A stretch of 37,439 nt of DNA from Powellomyces hirtus (taxonomy: Eukaryota > Chytridiomycota > Chytridiomycetes > Spizellomycetales > Powellomycetaceae). The notes beneath the pieces are model-generated. The model saw only the letters and a program-made list of their open reading frames with translations. It did no database searches and was not told the origin of the DNA. A program made the position numbers and the translations under genes. Numbering within the stretch: the first letter of the stretch is position 1; each line of letters opens with the position of its first letter. The stretch spans positions 1-37,439 of the forward strand of contig JAHLKG010000041.1 of NCBI GenBank assembly GCA_025526995.1, written 5' to 3'. Below, piece after piece: positions 1,374-15,141 of this stretch.

Positions 1374-2143
1374 TCAAGGGAGTAAGACCTCATCACCCTC
1401 TCGGTATACTTCCGGTGTGTTTTTTGCAGTCATAGTAGTTTGCCTGCTGGTTTTGTACGTCACGGAGCCATTGCTGCACAAGCAGTTCACAACAGCAAAT
1501 TCCTTAATCTGCCTTTCCAGGGCGGTTTGTGCCGATTGCTTTAATATCTGCCTGGGGTCGGGTGCCACCCATTGGTTTGGTACCCAAGGGGCACAGCCTA
1601 GATTGATCTCAAACCGAGATAGTCCCATCCATATTTGCGGCATTCAGTCGTAGATTCGTTCAAGTGTGGGGAGTAACTTCTTGCAGTTGGAGCCAGCATT
1701 GTCGAGAAAGGGGCCCATAATGCCTTTGAACGTCTTGATTGCGTTCTCCACCTTGCCATCAGTCTGTTGGTGTTGTGCCAACCTGAGTTCCTGCATGATG
1801 TCGAGCAGTATTGCCAGAATTCTGATAACCATTTGGGGTCCCGATCTCTCATGATGGTGTGGGACAGTCCAATACGGCGAAATGCCTGTTCCGGGAAGAG
1901 TTGAACTGTATCCTGAGCGCTAGCATGTGTGTCAGTAGGTAGAAGTAGCGCATGGTATGAGAGAAAATCAACAATGAGAAGCACGGCATCTGCCACCCTG
2001 ACCAGTCGGTTGTTGGTGTCTTTCAAGGGGTTCTTTGTCATGTCGGGCTCTACCCTAGCTTCCTGCCCCTTAGAGCCAGACTTGGGAAAAAAGATATCCA
2101 TGCCGCCTTGTTGTTGAATAGGTATCATCAGGAACCTCCAATG
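1374..2143 (-). pseudogene. Ty3/gypsy integrase core (relic)
   Basis: Minus-strand frames give a recognisable retroviral-type integrase core. The first catalytic Asp lies in LLIVDFLSYHALLLPTD, the second in IMRDRDPKWLSEFWQ, and the Glu in QTDGKVENAIKTF, which is read in another frame about 60 bp further on. The downstream part holds SRFEINLG and EGDEVLLP, the usual end of the core and start of the C-terminal domain. At least two frameshifts separate these blocks. The N-terminal zinc-binding part lies at 2715-2545 on the other side of an inserted LTR. Confidence 0.85.
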
Positions 2144-2541
2144 TGTTGATTGTGTGTGGAAACTCTCTTATCATTGAGAGGGAGGGGCCAGGCATCACTG
2201 GCCTTTTATAGGAGACTATCTGTACACTGCCAAGAAAGCCAAGTCCCTTGGCATGACTGTGCCTGGTCTTTGCAGACCCTGGCTGAGCGGTGCCAAGCGA
2301 TGCTGAGTTCTCCGTGGGTGTTCTGAGACTGTTATGAGCATTGCCAAGATTCTTGGCAGGGTCTCAGCTCAAACAACACAGCCTCAGGATGTAACCTGCC
2401 ACAACTTGGTAAGCTGTAGCTCCATCTAACTCAAACAATGCTCCTTGGCTGCTGCACAACCCAGGCTATTCAATGCCACCCACAGTCTGGGGATCAAGCA
2501 CCTACAGGCAGACATACAGACTCCAACACTTGTTGTCAACA
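2144..2541 (+). mobile_element. Probable solo LTR inserted in the integrase relic
   Basis: This 398-bp block has no coding similarity and splits the integrase reading. To its right, minus-strand codons run through the zinc finger to LPIPNV. To its left, they resume with HW and the catalytic core. The block starts TGTTGA and ends TCAACA, the inverted TG...CA ends typical of LTRs. A TTTTATAGGAG box near 2203 could be a promoter element for a plus-strand LTR. I found no clear 5-bp target-site duplication, so its origin is an inference. Confidence 0.6.
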
Positions 2542-7705: not shown

Positions 7706-7962
7706 TGTTGAGATTGGACTTTTGAGATAAACCTGTCAAATCGACAGCGCTCCAAGACTCCACGTGACCCCCGCTGCGCAACGGTGCTTCATCTGACCGC
7801 GAATGCTTAGATAGCTTGCACAGCCACCTTTCTTCTTCGTAGTGTAGCTCTCCTTCACCCATCGTTTACACTTAACAATAACACAATCATTCCATTGTCA
7901 TCGAGAGTGTCGAGCTAGCTTTTCTCTGTTGCACTACCCCTTAACCGGACCTACGCACAACA
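7706..7962 (+). repeat. 5' LTR of the copia element
   Basis: It begins TGTTGAGATTGG and ends CCTACGCACAACA, with inverted TGTTG/CAACA ends. It is about 95% identical to 12793-13048. A palindromic CACGTG (in CCACGTGA) occurs in both LTR copies and could bind a bHLH factor. No clear TATA box is seen. Confidence 0.97.
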
Positions 7963-7976
7963 GGTTATGAGCCCTG
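7963..7976 (+). other. Primer-binding site for a tRNA-iMet half molecule
   Basis: Immediately after the 5' LTR comes GGTTATGAGCCCTG. This is the complement of the anticodon stem and loop of eukaryotic initiator tRNA-Met (CAGGGCUCAUAACC, the yeast sequence as I remember it), not of a tRNA 3' end. Drosophila copia is known to prime from a 5' half of tRNA-iMet in this way, so the same mechanism is inferred here. Confidence 0.8.
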
Positions 7977-8043
7977 TCAGCCCGCTCAACGCTTAAAACG
8001 ACAAACATCCTGTATCCTTCTCCTCGTTGTTCAATACTTAATT

Positions 8044-9229
8044 ATGCCATTGTCCCGTAGCCCCATTCGGACCAGGTCCGGAACAAACACTGCCCCTGCA
8101 CTGACGCAGGATTCTACAGATGAGGGTCCTCACAGTGAGGATGACAAGGGTCAAGCCACCCAACCTGACAATGAGGTCGTCACTAATGAGTATTTGGAGA
8201 AGGTGCTGTTGGAATCCCAACACATTATTGCCAAAATGCAGGAACGCATGCTGCTGGAATTGCAGCAACTCGCCGCCAAGTCACAAAGGGAGTTTCAGCA
8301 CCTTGCAGCTGAATCCCAACAAGAGATGATGGAAAAGATGATTTCCACCTTTGCACAAATGCAAATGCAGATGGCCGCTGCTGCAAACTCTCAGGCCTTC
8401 CTGGAAGACCGCCCACGCTCTTGTTCATTGGAGAATTCTTCCTCCATGTCGTCATCGATGAATCCTGTTGCAAAGGAGCTTCTTAAGCAGGTTCCCAACT
8501 TCAACGGCGATATGAGTAGTCCGCAACTGCTTCTCAAATTCATTGCAAAAATGGACGACTTCTTTGAGGTTGCATACCTACCGCCGCTTCTCAAAACAAA
8601 AATGGTGGTGAGCTCACATCCACCACTCACATCTGGTGGAGGACTCAGAAAAGCCAAGGGACCGCTCCTCAAATGTGGAACCTTCTCAAAACAACACTAT
8701 GCCTGAGGTTTACACCACCAGCGTTCAGCTCGATGATCCGTGATAAACTGGATGATCTTTCGCAGACCACGTCGGTTATTGCATACAACAATGCGTTCAA
8801 CAAACTCGTCATGCAGATTCCCGACATGAACAAAGGAGAAATCGAGCATCGCTATCTCAAGGGACTCAAGCGTCCTATCTACTCAGCCATCATCTCAAAG
8901 GATCTCTTGGATCTGGACGCCATGCAGGAAGCTGCAATCCGACAGGAACAGCTTACCTCAGAACGGGGCGCTCGTGTGCCCAAAACCGAGTCTCACGTTG
9001 AAGCCCATGTGATGCATGGCAATTCGGACGCCAACACCAATGAACACGCGCCCCGAAAATCGTGGAAAAAAACAACGCAAGCCGCTCAGTTCCAGGATCT
9101 CCCTGCCTCCTCTGCGAACAAACCGGTCATTGGATGAAGGGACTGCCGAAAATGAAGGACGCGCGCAAGCTCCTTAAACAACATCAGCAAGAACCTGCTG
9201 CCAAAGCAAAACCTCGTTTTGGCAACTAA
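8044..9229 (+). pseudogene. gag of the copia element (frameshifted)
   Basis: The ATG at 8044 opens a frame with a Gln/Glu-rich coiled-coil-like stretch (residues about 45-120, ELQQLAAKSQREFQHLAAES). It leads into a capsid-like part (ELLKQVPNFNGDMSSPQLLL), then shifts frame near 8620-8632. The next frame holds WWRTQKSQGTAPQMWNLL and IRDKLDDLSQTTSVIAYNNAF. After another shift a zinc knuckle, CLLCEQTGHWMKG, is followed by Leu where the last Cys should be; the Cys codon TGC is present one base out of frame. The frame ends with TAA at 9227-9229. Gag packages the element RNA; as written this copy cannot make it intact. Confidence 0.85.
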
Positions 9230-12200
9230 CCACAGGTCCTCGCACTCAATCGCCCTTGATTCTTGCGCAACGCACCACATTATCAAGGACGCTATTCTCC
9301 TTACTGACCTGCGACCCATCCCGGCAGTCCAAATCAGCGTCACAAACGGCGAAAACCTTACCGCTCGCGAAGCAGGCACACTCACCATCAGCAATAACAA
9401 CACGGACGAAGCCATTGTCTGCGTCGACGTGCTCTACGTACCTGAAGCAAGCCGCAACTTGGTTTCCACATCGCCACTGAACCGGGACGGTTACGACATC
9501 ACATTCTCAACTAACGGTTCCTCCATTTTAAAGAACGGCCGTGTTATCCTACCGCTCCGCCACAACGGAAACCTGCCATTTATCGCAGGTTATGTTGAAA
9601 CCACCGCCGCTGCTTTTGCGACCGAAGCTGCAAAACAAAGGACCGCAATGTCTATAAACTATGGCATCAACGCTTTGGGCACATTGGACAACGAGCGCTT
9701 CAAGCTGCGAATCTGATCTACTCTCTCGATCTGCCAAACAACGTCAAACTGGAGCACGTGTGTGCTCCGGCTGCTCTCTTGGTAAATCTACCAGGCTGCC
9801 CTTTGATGGGCAAAACCCTCAACCTGCACCAAACCTCTTGATTGCATACATTTGGACATCCTCGACATGGGCCCCAGCCTTCTCTCTCTCTCCGGTGCCC
9901 GCTACATCCTCATGTTCATTGACAAATACACACGGTATTTCCATTCATCTACCTCCTCAAGACCAAAGATCAAACCAACGATTATTGGCAAAACTATCGC
10001 GCGTACGCTGATGCCATCTCGACTCCAAGATCAAGGAGCTGCGCTGCGATAACGGCGGTGAATACTATCCCCTACAGGCTGAGCTGCTCGCCGATGGGAT
10101 CACGTTAAACCCTACTCACCCGTACTCCTCTCAGCAAAATGGCATTGCTGAACGGTTCAACCGTACGCTCATGGACCAGGTCCGAGCGATTCTTCATGAC
10201 AGCCGCGCTCCTTTCAAACTTTGGGGAGAACTCGCTATGGCCGTCAACTACCTGCGTCAACGGATGCCATCAACGTCTCTCAACGGAGAGACCCCATACC
10301 AACATTGGTTTGGGACCCCTGCCGATGTATCGAACCTCCGCACCATCTGGAGCATGCCTATATGCATCAACCTGTGCGCCGTCGCACACACCGCAAGCTC
10401 GGAGCTCGCGCTGTCGGACCGTTCCGACTAGTGGGATATCACCCCACTAAACAAGGCAACTATTGCCTTTAATGCATCGACGGATTCGATCATCGACGCA
10501 CGAGACGTCACAATTAACGAGGCTGATTATCAGCCCTGTCGCTCAGAGCGCAACACCTCCGAATACGTGGTTGAGCCATTTACTCTCTCGCAACGGCGAA
10601 GGGGGAGAGGAATTCCTGGTCAAGTGGCTTGGCTACGACGAACCAACATGGGAACCCCTCGACAACGTCAAGGATTCAGAGGCCCTGACGCGATTCACCG
10701 GAATCGAAGATGACGGCACACCCGTAATCGCCGAACTGCATGCCGCATGCAGCACTGACATTGACGAGCCCGCCACTTACCAGGCGGCAATCAACTCGCC
10801 GTACGCGAAAGAGTGGAAACAAGCGATCGACACTGAACTCTCATCTCACCGCACTAACAAGACGTGGGACACGGACACCACGCAAACACCGTCTGGCACT
10901 CACCTTGTTGATTCCAAATGGGTCTTCAAAGTCAAACGCAACGCCGCTGGTTCCATCAAGAAGTTCAAAGCCCGCCTCGTCGCCCGAGGCTTCACGCAGC
11001 GTGAAGGCATTGACTTCAACGAAACATATGCGCCCGTCGTCAAGTTTAACACCTTGCGGGCGCTACTCGCGCTTGCCGCTAAGCTCAACCTTCACGTCCA
11101 TCAGATGGATGTCATCACCGCATTTCTCAACGGAGATCTCGACGTAGAAATCTGGATGCGGCTCCCAGCGCGCGCGTGCGACGACGTTCAAACTACGCCG
11201 TTCCCTTTACGGCCTTAAACAATCGCCGCGCCTATGGAACAAGGTTCTCGACTCCTTTCTTAACAGCTCGGGTTCTCAGTATCAGAACCGCACGCGCTCT
11301 ACTTAAGCGGACTGACAACACAAGGATCCTGATTGTTGCCGTCTACGTGGATGATCTCACGATTTTCGCATCAAACCTCGATGACCTGCTGCTCTCAAAT
11401 CCGCGCTTGCCGAACGCTTCAAGATGGAGGACATGGGGGAGATCTCTTTCCTTCTCGGTCTTCAGATTACGCGCGACCGGTCAAAGCGATGCATTACCAT
11501 CGGCCAACAGAAGTACATCAAAGACATGATCGACAAGTTTAACCTTAACGGCATGCGGCCGCATCACATCCCGATGGACCCGACCTTACATCTAAACGCG
11601 CACGATGGGGCCGACGCCCTCGACGCATCAGGAATCAAGGAATATCAGTCGATCATTGGAACACTAATGTATCTGATGTTAGGGACTCGCCCTGACCTGG
11701 CCTACTCAGTTTCCCGTTTATCTCAGTTTCTGGCAGCACCGACGGCCGCACACATGACGGCCGCAAAGAAAGTTTGCGCGTACGCAAACACAACCAGTGA
11801 TCTTTCTCTTGTCTTCCAAGATGGGGGAGATATTGTCGGATATTCGGATGCCGACTGCACGCTGTACGGACACGCGTCGCTCAACCTCCGGCTATGTATT
11901 CATGCTCAACGGAGCTGCTATTTCATGGAAATCTAACGTCAAAAATCAACGGCGCTATCCACAGCAGAAGCAGAATACATTGCACTCGCGGAATGTGCAA
12001 AGGAAGCACTCTGGATCCAGGGTCTCCTATCCGAACTGTCAGCAACGGAGCAGACAGCAGTTCTCATCTATGAGGACAATCAGGCCGCTATCAAGCTTGC
12101 CGCCAATCCGACGCATCACCAACGAACCAAACACATCGATGTCCGTTATCACTTCCTGCGAGACCTCGTCGGTAACGAGCGCATTCACCTACAGTACATT

Positions 12201-12341
12201 GAGTCCAAGCTCATGCTGGCTGACGCCCTGACGAAACCGCTACCTCGCCCATTACTTGATGATCTGCGACATGAACTGGACTCGAACGAAATCAGATTAC
12301 GCCAAATCTCACTGATATACACCCATTATAAGTCTAGTTGA
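9219..12341 (+). pseudogene. pol of the copia element: PR, INT, chromodomain, RT, RNase H (multiply frameshifted)
   Basis: Landmarks in order: protease IALDSCATHHI near 9258, where DSG has become DSC; the pre-integrase zinc segment LWHQRFGHIG near 9660 and CSGCSLGKSTRLPF near 9760-9805; integrase with Asp in LDILDMG (about 9855), Asp in CDNGGEY (10048) and Glu in NGIAERFNRT (10150-10152); a chromodomain at 10561-10710; RVT_2 RT with KARLVARGFTQREGIDF, HQMDVITAFLNGDL and YVDD at 11344-11355; RNase H with GYSDADC, LSTAEAEYIALAECAKEA, YEDNQAAIKLA and ADALTKPLPRP. The stop is TGA at 12339-12341. At least seven frame changes occur. The 3' end overlaps the antisense gene by 8 bp, tail to tail. Confidence 0.92.
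10558..10710 (+). other. Chromodomain between copia integrase and RT
   Basis: The plus strand reads SEYVVE, a one-base frame slip, then LLSRNGEGGEEFLVKWLGY, followed by DEPTWEPLDNVKDSEALTRF. That is the full chromodomain pattern: an E-Y-V-V-E strand, the F-L-V-K-W-x-G-Y core, the T-W-E-P turn and a C-terminal helix. From 10590 onward it is in one continuous frame with the RT domain. Chromodomains are normal in Ty3/gypsy chromoviruses but not a usual part of Ty1/copia pol. In a retroelement one would be expected to steer integration to marked chromatin. Confidence 0.85.
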
Positions 12342-12768
12342 AATACACCCGCGCACCAACCAATCGACGGTCCGACTTGTTGCATTTCGGGCAACGTATT
12401 TCTCCACTTCGATGCACCAGACCCCGTGAACAGCTCTCACACAGAAAACAGGGGTTTCTTTCTCCACAGGCGTGCGGCGTCCGACAGTCTTTTCTTTTGT
12501 AACACCTGTCACACCGCCTTCTCGTTACTTCCCCTTCAAAGAGGTTAATCCACTCTTTTCTGTGCAATGCGAGATATCAGTACCCTGAAACCAGCACAAC
12601 GGGGCTCCTTCCTCACCTGCAGATAACACATCTGCGTGCGGCGTCGTCAGGTGTCACCCAAATGTACTTCAAACACCGGAAGCACAGCAGGTGCCCGCAG
12701 TCCCCACAGAATTCGGCATCTTGAAAAAGACAAACGGGACACTTCGGAGCTCGACCGTTTTGTGGCAT
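12334..12768 (-). CDS. Antisense two-exon gene in the copia element: 125-residue Cys-rich RING-type protein
   Basis: Exon 1 is 12768-12617 and exon 2 is 12559-12334, with a 57-nt intron (GTGAGG...GCACAG) that joins the frames exactly. The first half has a textbook RING-HC spacing: C10-x2-C13-x10-C24-x-H26-x2-C29-x2-C32-x14-C47-x2-C50. The second half adds C67-x2-C70, C76, H80, C82, C88-x2-C91-x2-C94 and C107-x2-C110, a second zinc-binding module. In total 17 of 125 residues are Cys. RING domains usually recruit E2 enzymes for ubiquitin transfer; that role is only inferred. The start codon lies 25 bp inside the 3' LTR, and the frame stays open into the LTR as far as an ATG at 12948. The stop overlaps the pol stop by 8 bp. 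No frameshift is seen, unlike the sense genes. Confidence 0.75.
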
Positions 12769-12779
12769 GTTTGGTCTCC

Positions 12780-12792
12780 AAAGTTGGGGGAG
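12780..12792 (+). other. Polypurine-tract candidate
   Basis: AAAGTTGGGGGAG directly abuts the 3' LTR, where a plus-strand-priming polypurine tract is expected. It is interrupted by two T residues, so it is either degenerate or short (the final GGGGGAG). Confidence 0.55.
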
Positions 12793-13048
12793 TGTTGAGA
12801 TTGGACTTTGAGATAAACCTGTCAAATCGACAGCGCTCCAAGACTCCACGTGACCCCCGCTGCGCAATGGTACTTCATCTGACCGCGAATGCTTAGATAG
12901 CCTGCACAGCCACCTTTCTTCTTTGTAGTGTAGATCTCTTTCACCCATCGTTTACACTTAACAACAACACAATCATCCCATTGTCATTGAGAGTGTCGAG
13001 CTAGCTTTCCTCTGTTGCACTACATCTCAACCGGACCTACGCACAACA
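12793..13048 (+). repeat. 3' LTR of the copia element
   Basis: It starts TGTTGAGATTGG and ends GCACAACA and matches 7706-7962 with about 13 substitutions and one missing T. Most differences are transitions. Read on the minus strand it carries an open frame that is continuous with the antisense RING gene. Confidence 0.97.
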
Positions 13049-13389: not shown

Positions 13390-14545
13390 GCACCAACAGT
13401 TCAACGCATTTTTCCTTACCGCTCTCTCAAAAATGGTCCAAAGAACAAAAAGAAGACAGTTCCATGCTCCCCTGTTTACGTTCTACAATGTGGTGAGGGT
13501 GCAAGGCTGGTATCTGACCAGGGGTGGAAGGAGCATGAGCAGATGTTTGAAAATGTGCAGAAATCACATTTCTATTCACCACTCTCTCCAAAATGATCCA
13601 AATAATGAAACGAAGACAGTTCTAGACTCGCGCAGGTCAGGTGTACGATTTGGTATGTCACAGAAGGCTGTATCTGTGTATATGTAGAAAGTAGTTTTTC
13701 AGCGTGTGTCTACATATATGACCTGTCATTGTATTTCTATTCACCACTCTCTCAAAAATAGTCCAAATAATGAAAAGAAAACAGTTCTAGGCTCGCGCAG
13801 ATCTGGTGTACGATGTGGTGATATTGAGAGGGTGGTATCTGTGTGGAGGCAGAAGGGGTATGAGCAGATGTGTGAAAATGCGCAGAAATCGCATTTTTAC
13901 TCACCACTCCCTCAAAGAAGGTCCAAATAATGAAAGGAAGACAGTTCTAGACTCGCGCGGGTCTGGTGTACAATGTGATAACATTGCGAGGCTGGTATCT
14001 GTGCAGTGGTGGAAGGGGTATGAGCAGATGTGCGAAAAACTGTTGAAAAATGCGAAATCAAATAACTTTGTCAATACCTGTCCAATTGACGAAAGGAAGA
14101 CAGTTCTGAACTCGCACGGATCTGTTCTACGATGGGGTATAGCAGCGCTGGGTCTACAATGGGGTATAGCAGTGCTGGGTCGTGTCAGGTTTGGGGAAGC
14201 GACATGCATGCAGAGATGTCTCTTATGGTCAAAAAATTGTCGTAAAACGCGAAATCGAATACCTCTGTCAACACCCGTCCAATTGACAAAAGGACGACAG
14301 TTCTGAACTTGCGCGGGTATGTTCTACGATGGAGTATAGCAGCGCTGAGTCTGTGTCGGGTCTGGGAAGCGAAATGCCTGCAGAGATGTCTCTTATGGTC
14401 AAAAAATTGTCAAAAAACGCGAAATCAAATAACTCTGTCAATACCTGTCCAATTGTAAGAAAGGAAGACAATTCTGAACTGGCCAGGGTCCGCTCTACAA
14501 TGTGAACATGGCGGAGGGTGGTCTGGTGTGTCTAGGTTGCGAAAT
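13390..14545. repeat. Degenerate tandem repeat, about seven copies of 158-197 bp
   Basis: The anchor GAAGACAGTTCT or close variants occurs at about 13452, 13612, 13777, 13938, 14096, 14293 and 14464, giving spacings of 160, 165, 161, 158, 197 and 171 bp. Each unit also carries variants of CTCGCGCGGGTCTGGTGTACGATG and, in the first four, CACCACTCTCTCAAAAA. The last three units switch to a subtype with TCAATACCTGTCCAATTG. The fifth unit is longer because of an internal duplication of about 27 bp (CTACRATGGGGTATAGCAG...). Open frames here merely follow the repeat period and are not genes. Confidence 0.9.
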
Positions 14546-15141
14546 GCAATGGAATTGCGGGCAGATGCTGTTTGGCTAGGTGTCCGAAGCAAACGTAAGC
14601 AAGCATAAGCAAGGCATCGCCGTCAAACAGTGGTGATACGAAGTAGTGTCCTTTGTGGGGGGGGCTCCACATTTTTGCCCACCGACTGTACTGCGGGTAT
14701 CGCTATATTCCCACTAACTCGGACCTGGAGATTGACAGATGGTGGTACAAATGATGACTGCAGGCGACGCGTCACCCCCTTTCCTGATGTGGATTTGAGG
14801 TGTGGTGTCATTTCGCGCAGCATGCTGAATTGTGAAGGAGCAGGTCTGCAAGGTCCTGAAATCATAGGGCACGATACCACCATGTGCACCGGAAAAACTA
14901 TCGTTTTCCGTAATGCTGCGTAGCTACCGAGGCATGCATGGTGAGCTATTGTCTCTTGATGTCAATGCACGTCATTGGTCCCACGCATGGTAGTCGCGCC
15001 AATGACGTGGAGGGAAATGCAGTGTTCCAGCCCCCTTCCTCAATAAATAAGGAGGAGGTCTTCAAGGACGCTCTTCCGTCTTTGCTCGCTTTCTCAGCAA
15101 CACGAGCATCACAGCTGAATCAGTGTATCAAAAACATTATC
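14546..15141. other. Intergenic stretch before the first host gene
   Basis: No gene is supported. It has a G7 run near 14657, a short AAGCAA direct repeat (about 14595-14620) and an open frame at 14630-14923 that resembles nothing known to me. The last part should contain the promoter and 5' leader of the NmrA-like gene. Confidence 0.4.

Follow-up and report, generated by a model that had tools for sequence, protein, structure and literature searches.

Does the short, interrupted reading frame that lies antisense to gag-pol in a Ty1/copia retrotransposon of the chytrid Powellomyces hirtus represent a gene of the element and, if so, what might its product do? The frame is found at positions 12334-12768 of the reverse strand of a 37,439-nucleotide stretch of contig JAHLKG010000041.1 (hereafter, the window), and a preliminary description, made from the letters of the window, proposed that it is a spliced RING-type gene that would hardly have arisen by chance. 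From the analyses below we conclude, with fair confidence, that this Ty1/copia family of P. hirtus has an accessory gene that codes for protein on the strand opposite to gag-pol and that would be spliced to yield a tandem-RING protein.

Re-reading of the locus upheld the proposed architecture. Exon 1 (12617-12768, reverse strand, 152 nt) has its start codon in the context CAAACATG and encodes a RING-HC module from Cys10 to Cys50; it is followed by a phase-2 intron of 57 nt (12560-12616, reverse strand), which begins with GTGAGG, contains a branch-like CTGAT and ends in GCACAG, and whose donor gives an in-frame stop. Exon 2 (12334-12559, reverse strand, 226 nt, with the stop codon at 12334-12336) encodes a second, C4C4-like Cys-rich module and a C-terminal tail. 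The two exons join in frame across the GT..AG intron, and the spliced product, of 125 amino acids with 17 Cys, shows exactly the RING-HC spacing that had been described (C-x2-C-x10-C-x-H-x2-C-x2-C-x14-C-x2-C), with the second module reading C-x2-C-x11-C-x5-C-x2-C-x2-C-x12-C-x2-C. The gene lies on the opposite strand to gag-pol, with RNase H on one side and the 3' LTR on the other: the last position of the RNase H frame is 12341, so that the two frames overlap at their tails by 8 nt (12334-12341), and the start codon lies 24 nt from the LTR, which begins at 12793 and may act as an antisense promoter. In one respect the preliminary description was mistaken, since it assumed a basidiomycete host; the host is a chytrid, P. 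hirtus or a very close relative, as indicated by an amino-acid permease encoded in the window, 90% of which aligns with a P. hirtus protein at 100% identity. The window copy has also suffered a net in-frame loss of 6 nt in the C-terminal tail (12334-12400, reverse strand), which the other copies shown do not share, and the tail RRLRWWLRRVYFN of the other open copies reads RRLVGARVYFN in it.

The carrier element spans positions 7706-13048 of the forward strand and is bounded by a 5' LTR (7706-7962), recognized by comparison of the LTR pair, and a 3' LTR (12793-13048) that is 94.6% identical to it. Between them are a gag-like frame (8568-9137; Pfam Retrotrans_gag, E=8e-12), the Pol beta-barrel domain of copia elements (9156-9716; Pol_BBD, E=1e-13), a chromodomain plus reverse transcriptase region (10451-11936; Chromo, E=1.7e-6; RVT_2, E=3e-29 and 9e-9) and a frame (11937-12341) that produced no Pfam match and that we take to be RNase H, partly from its motif, from its place after RVT_2 and from homologous copies elsewhere in the genome. 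The order of LTR pair, Pol_BBD, RVT_2 and RNase H is that of copia elements; the pol of the window copy is split into several frames, including two separate ones in the chromodomain and RVT_2 region (10451-11218 and 11385-11936), and no integrase model matched in those frames from Pol_BBD to RVT_2 that were scanned. Chromodomains are typical of Ty3/gypsy elements and not of copia, and in this copia-order element one is found directly before the reverse transcriptase (10589-10696, forward strand), with a Pfam Chromo match above the cut-off; a second copy also contains one (L056:5628-6290, E=1.9e-10), again above the cut-off. Likewise, the gag frame at 8568-9137 (forward strand) matches Retrotrans_gag above the cut-off and Ty3_capsid just under it, and not a copia-type gag model.

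A DNA search of the 29.3-Mb assembly of the same genome retrieved 41 matches to the antisense gene, the window included, and the alignment has 41 rows, comprising the window and 39 other loci, one of which gave two pieces; the second piece of L029, which equals L043, was left out of the alignment. The preliminary description had named stops or frameshifts in related copies as an argument against a gene, and on this point the outcome is divided: the full spliced frame, with GT..AG, is open in 20 of the 41 rows, and the other 21 are broken by stops or frameshifts, or truncated. Rows were counted as open if both exons keep the frame without an early stop and with GT..AG, a start codon not being required; among the 20, L047 lacks a start codon at that place and the Met of L037 and L043 lies one codon in. 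Exon lengths are constant at 152 and 232 nt in 29 of the 41 rows. The splice signals were counted in 35 rows, after dropping six that were truncated or poorly aligned: GT and ACAG are present in all 35, a branch-like YTRAY site in 33, and the donor creates an in-frame stop in every one of them, so that unspliced RNA would encode only the first RING. The intron measures 57 nt in 31 of these rows, 56 nt in three and 59 nt in one, L037, whose frame is open only when spliced. Divergence of the intron is 18.3%, vs 17-20% for the exons, depending on codon position.

We then asked how tightly the gene is tied to the element. From 512 RNase H candidates, 150 were scored, of which 37 rows show 73-100% identity and 113 show about 50%; the association was examined in 85 rows, namely the 37 closer ones and 48 of the 113 more distant ones. 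The preliminary description had proposed a look at related copia elements, and the same antisense gene lies at the same place, downstream of RNase H, in 36 of the 36 listed rows with at least 87% identity, with a gap of 39-152 nt to the nearest copy. It is absent beside the single listed row at 73% identity and beside all 48 sampled members of the other copia family, at about 50% identity. Because of this distribution, the antisense gene is a trait of this copia lineage, plus some stray copies. Gene copies without a listed family RNase H beside them are those at C4:1412358 and C34:56924 and the second genes at C3:1049225 and C32:110407, and the copy at C21:505398 adjoins a family RNase H that is in two pieces. 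Antisense RING genes are found paired, close together, at C3:1048396-1049648 and C32:110407-113209, perhaps within nested elements.

Selection on the frame was evaluated at several levels. Among seven diverged open copies, pairwise dN/dS (NG86) ranges from 0.19 to 0.87, and pN/pS is 0.65 in the true frame, 0.70 in one reverse frame and 0.80-0.90 in the other four, which is a small margin; in these same copies the true frame has no stops, vs 12-41 in the other five. With a codon model applied to 28 distinct frame-length copies, the gene-wide omega is 0.76 (2dlnL of 5.6 against 1); internal branches of the tree give 0.96 and terminal ones 0.66. For the RNase H of 30 distinct copies, omega is 0.22 on internal and 0.58 on terminal branches, in a fit that left out L018, L037 and L045 as incomplete.

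The constraint on the antisense gene is concentrated in its zinc ligands. Allowing two classes of sites (M1a), without specifying the ligands to the model, improves the fit over a single omega by 26 lnL units and assigns an omega of 0.14 to 41% of sites; with P>0.9, 26 codons fall in this class, including 14 of the 20 Cys/His codons and Arg51, the residue following the last Cys of the first RING. When the 20 Cys/His codons are fitted apart, with branch lengths fixed, their omega is 0.10 (2dlnL of 79 against 1), and on internal branches 0.002, the lower bound of the fit; this partition is partly circular, since ligands were defined by the majority residue and three His by inspection, a circularity that the site-class model does not share. 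Elsewhere, omega is 0.91 for the other 107 codons and 0.39 for the last 17. A count of codon cells in the alignment agrees with this: TGY codons deviate in 7/476 cells in the true frame vs 47/588 in the other five, and CAY codons in 0/84 vs 56/756, giving 7/560 vs 103/1344 for both together. One reverse frame, the same that showed a pN/pS of 0.70, comes near the true frame, with deviations in 10/420 cells, and in it the TG of an in-frame Cys codon can at the same time be part of a CAY triplet. The preliminary description had named a dN/dS near 1 as an argument against a gene, and the value is fairly high for the gene as a whole, and particularly on internal branches; since selection is focused on the zinc ligands, the gene-wide value does not refute a coding gene.

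A class of codons above 1 was also indicated for the antisense gene (M2a vs M1a: 11% of codons at omega about 2.6, 2dlnL of 9.9, a gain of 5 lnL units), with no such gain in RNase H; this signal is suggestive only, because the data include broken copies and likely recombination. Indeed, within a single copy the RING gene can differ from its RNase H neighbour in synonymous divergence (0.243 vs 0.082 for L030 and 0.182 vs 0.449 for L031), and disagreement of this kind, against L011, was seen for L030, L031, L033 and L041, which suggests recombination between subfamilies and weakens the tree-based values.

At the protein level, the eight C3HC4 ligands of the first module are at canonical spacing, and each is kept in 27-29 of the 29 frame-length copies. 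The window protein matches Pfam zf-C3HC4_4 with E=0.0034, under the gathering cut-off; a scan of eight members of the family alignment matched six Pfam families, five of them RING-type, and the best E value for seven further members, for which cut-offs are not shown, was 8.6e-5. In a profile search of PDB sequences, a tandem RNF4 chain was retrieved with E=1.3e-4 for the whole chain and with 0.22 and 1.2 for single stretches, and AlphaFold models from the single sequence of each exon alone were too poor to use (pLDDT of 47 and 54). No homologue was retrieved with one sequence query and one alignment query from a protein database in which a P. hirtus protein is present, in searches blind to proteins more than 1.75 times the length of the query. 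A viral origin was also considered and set aside: a scan of viral contigs with the family alignment gave 64 pattern matches, none of them a relative. Nor does the protein correspond to an RBR (RING-IBR-RING) ligase, because only 16 residues separate the two modules (Cys50-Cys67) and no IBR model was matched. Exact RING-HC spacing and an Arg after the last Cys, in the linchpin role, are features of RINGs that activate E2 enzymes, and this ligand spacing, together with the conserved arginine, points to a putative ubiquitin-ligase function.

Protein searches of the P. hirtus genome uncovered a second, low-copy type of the gene. Its open representative, L049 (C1:350941-351352), encodes 119 amino acids, about 50% identical to the copia protein, and contains a 67-nt intron (GTGAGT..AATAG) in the same position and phase as that of the copia gene; an AATAAA lies downstream, a dynein light chain gene adjoins it in divergent orientation, and the surrounding 9.9 kb yielded neither LTR nor gag nor RT of the window family. 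All eight Cys of the second module are also present in the L049 protein, which lacks the Cys76, His80 and His100 found in the copia protein and has Gln at the position of Arg51. Its best Pfam RING match (E=7.9e-5) is also under the gathering score. As judged from their sequences, the copia gene and L049 share ancestry, including the position of the intron, and this common position indicates that neither would derive from a mature mRNA of the other. L050 is a duplicate of L049 (93%, with one stop), and a window-family LTR (95%) lies at a distance of about 3.9 kb from it; L048, L052 and L063 are fragments of L049-type genes; L063 (C11) had seemed to be a host gene in a 218-aa frame and turned out to consist of rearranged fragments. 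Dynein light chain matches, five unbroken and one broken, occur on C1, C5, C23, C29 and C34; the duplicated L049/L050 region accounts for two of these, next to the RING gene.

In L051 (4878-5172, reverse strand), a decayed copy, the intron is missing exactly at the exon junction, for which the simplest reading would be that the intron was spliced in vivo and the spliced transcript once reverse-transcribed. The frames around L051 look, by reading and not by family search, like a gypsy remnant with a PHD-finger-like frame. We rejected L051 as the antisense gene of a second copia family, whose presumed LTR, repeated about 40 times, ends about 590 nt before it, and the RING match of L064, which shares three pieces with the L051 stretch, was unusable (best E of 0.92).

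The best reading of these results is a selected, spliced, element-carried tandem-RING gene, related to another intron-bearing gene; the RING-type zinc protein that it encodes probably serves the element as an accessory protein. In a short region beyond pol, where pN/pS alone weakly separates the frames, open frames might arise by chance on the strand antisense to unconstrained sequence; we nevertheless reject this explanation, and give it hardly any weight, in view of the conserved splice signals, the constraint on Cys/His codons and a homologue about 50% identical with an intron at the same position. The preliminary description thus holds in its core, that of an element-borne, spliceable, antisense gene with RING-type ligand spacing under selection, to which an outside relative with the same intron position can now be added. 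It seems improbable, too, that the antisense transcript is a non-coding RNA, one that for example feeds silencing or damps gag-pol, and the frame a decaying fossil. Many broken copies, a weak gene-wide omega and an intron conserved as much as the exons would fit this; the sparing of the Cys/His codons, also on internal branches of the tree, argues against it.

What the protein does, and in which direction the gene moved, can each be read in more than one way. Under the selected-gene reading, the antisense transcript would start in the 3' LTR or just outside it, and would be spliced and translated into a protein of about 127 amino acids, comprising the RING-HC, the C4C4-like module and a conserved basic and aromatic tail. 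RING 1, with its linchpin-like Arg51, would probably recruit an E2 enzyme, and the fast-evolving remainder and the tail would contact a substrate; putative targets are the Gag or integrase of the element itself, or a host restriction or silencing factor, and we have no preference among them. The intron would persist through replication, since the gag-pol RNA contains it in complementary form, and in that form it stays unspliced. A fuller account, in which the element owns a RING ubiquitin ligase acquired together with its intron, antisense placement shields that intron in reverse transcription, much as in the laboratory antisense-intron indicator cassette, and conserved ligands on a fast-evolving surface reflect conflict with a host restriction factor, is in our view tentative and, taken as a whole, rather unlikely. 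It is possible, if still doubtful, that the product is instead a zinc-binding accessory protein and not a ubiquitin ligase, with RING 1 only as a fold, that binds nucleic acid or Gag in the manner of a nucleocapsid-type helper. The Pfam RING matches falling under the cut-off wherever cut-offs are shown, the basic and aromatic tail RRLRWWLRRV, conserved as its low omega indicates, and the omega of 0.91 for the non-ligand codons taken together all suit such a protein; against it are the exactness of the RING-HC spacing and the conservation of Arg51, as in E2-activating RINGs, yet the Gln of L049 tempers the latter. Transfer may also have run the other way, the gene having arisen in transposable elements or been picked up by them first, with L049 as a stranded or domesticated copy, a minority possibility to our mind. 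L049-type copies and fragments are scattered (L048, L050, L051, L052 and L063), as for a mobile sequence, and one of them, L050, has a family LTR in its vicinity, but L049 itself lies apart from family sequences, has its own longer intron with a GTGAGT donor and a downstream AATAAA, and is present in few copies.

Antisense genes at this place in retroelements have precedents. In plant LTR elements, antisense ORFs lie between pol and the 3' LTR in most copies, with an antisense promoter for Grande, and the accessible portions of these sources state, in one review, that the ORFs have no clear similarity to known proteins and, in a paper on Retand, that 72 of the 104 antisense ORFs contain known domains, chiefly TRP28 but also Smc and others, with no RING among those named (PMC7264820, PMC11963269). 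A word search of the main texts of PMC7264820 and PMC11963269 did not find "ring" or "intron". The chytrid gene resembles these ORFs in place, orientation and presence in most copies, and differs in that its carrier is a copia element of a chytrid and that it encodes a RING and contains an intron. Among fungi, the brtn gene of Boty-like elements was reportedly treated by Zhao in 2011. The available parts of two further sources describe brtn as an additional antisense gene in the Boty-like (gypsy) elements of Botrytis cinerea (PMC8365987, PMC4227169). Both brtn and the chytrid gene are thus antisense extras in fungal LTR retrotransposons, the carrier of brtn being, in those parts of the sources, gypsy and not copia. 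The regulatory bZIP protein HBZ is encoded by a spliced gene, whose intron joins an exon in the LTR to the body of the gene. As far as the accessible text goes, HBZ is an antisense gene of HTLV-1 (PMC11963269). It is therefore, like the chytrid gene, an antisense gene of a retroelement, with a bZIP and an LTR-exon intron vs a RING and a 57-nt intron inside the frame. With RING-HC E3 ligases of the RNF4 and TRIM type, the chytrid protein has in common the ligand spacing, the CPVC start and the Arg after the last ligand; in contrast to them, it lies below the Pfam cut-offs, and has a tandem C4C4-like module and no other domain found. Bdelloid LTR elements also capture genes (PMC5408684), and a word search of that paper did not find RING and found antisense mentioned once, in an unrelated context. 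Among the known cases compared, from plants, Botrytis and bdelloids, none is of RING type or has an intron inside an antisense frame, as far as the available parts of these sources extend, and the papers listed in searches of a limited collection of literature include none that describes a copia element with an antisense gene of RING type or with an intron. With the same restriction to the available parts of the sources, antisense genes at this place are already known from plants and Botrytis, and the RING type and the intron inside the frame are new here.

Most of the antisense genes known to lie between pol and the 3' LTR come from plants. The recognizable ligand pattern of the chytrid gene, the codon-level constraint on its ligands, its intron and its outside relative make the role of such a gene testable. 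Antisense placement also offers a way for an intron-bearing gene to ride in a retrotransposon.

Two further features of the window lie outside the element: positions 2111-2518 (reverse strand) are an 84% repeat of a piece read as the LTR of the other, about 50% diverged, copia family, and just downstream of the 3' LTR, at about 13405-14547, direct repeats occur that are imperfect and offset from one another by about 165-485 bases.
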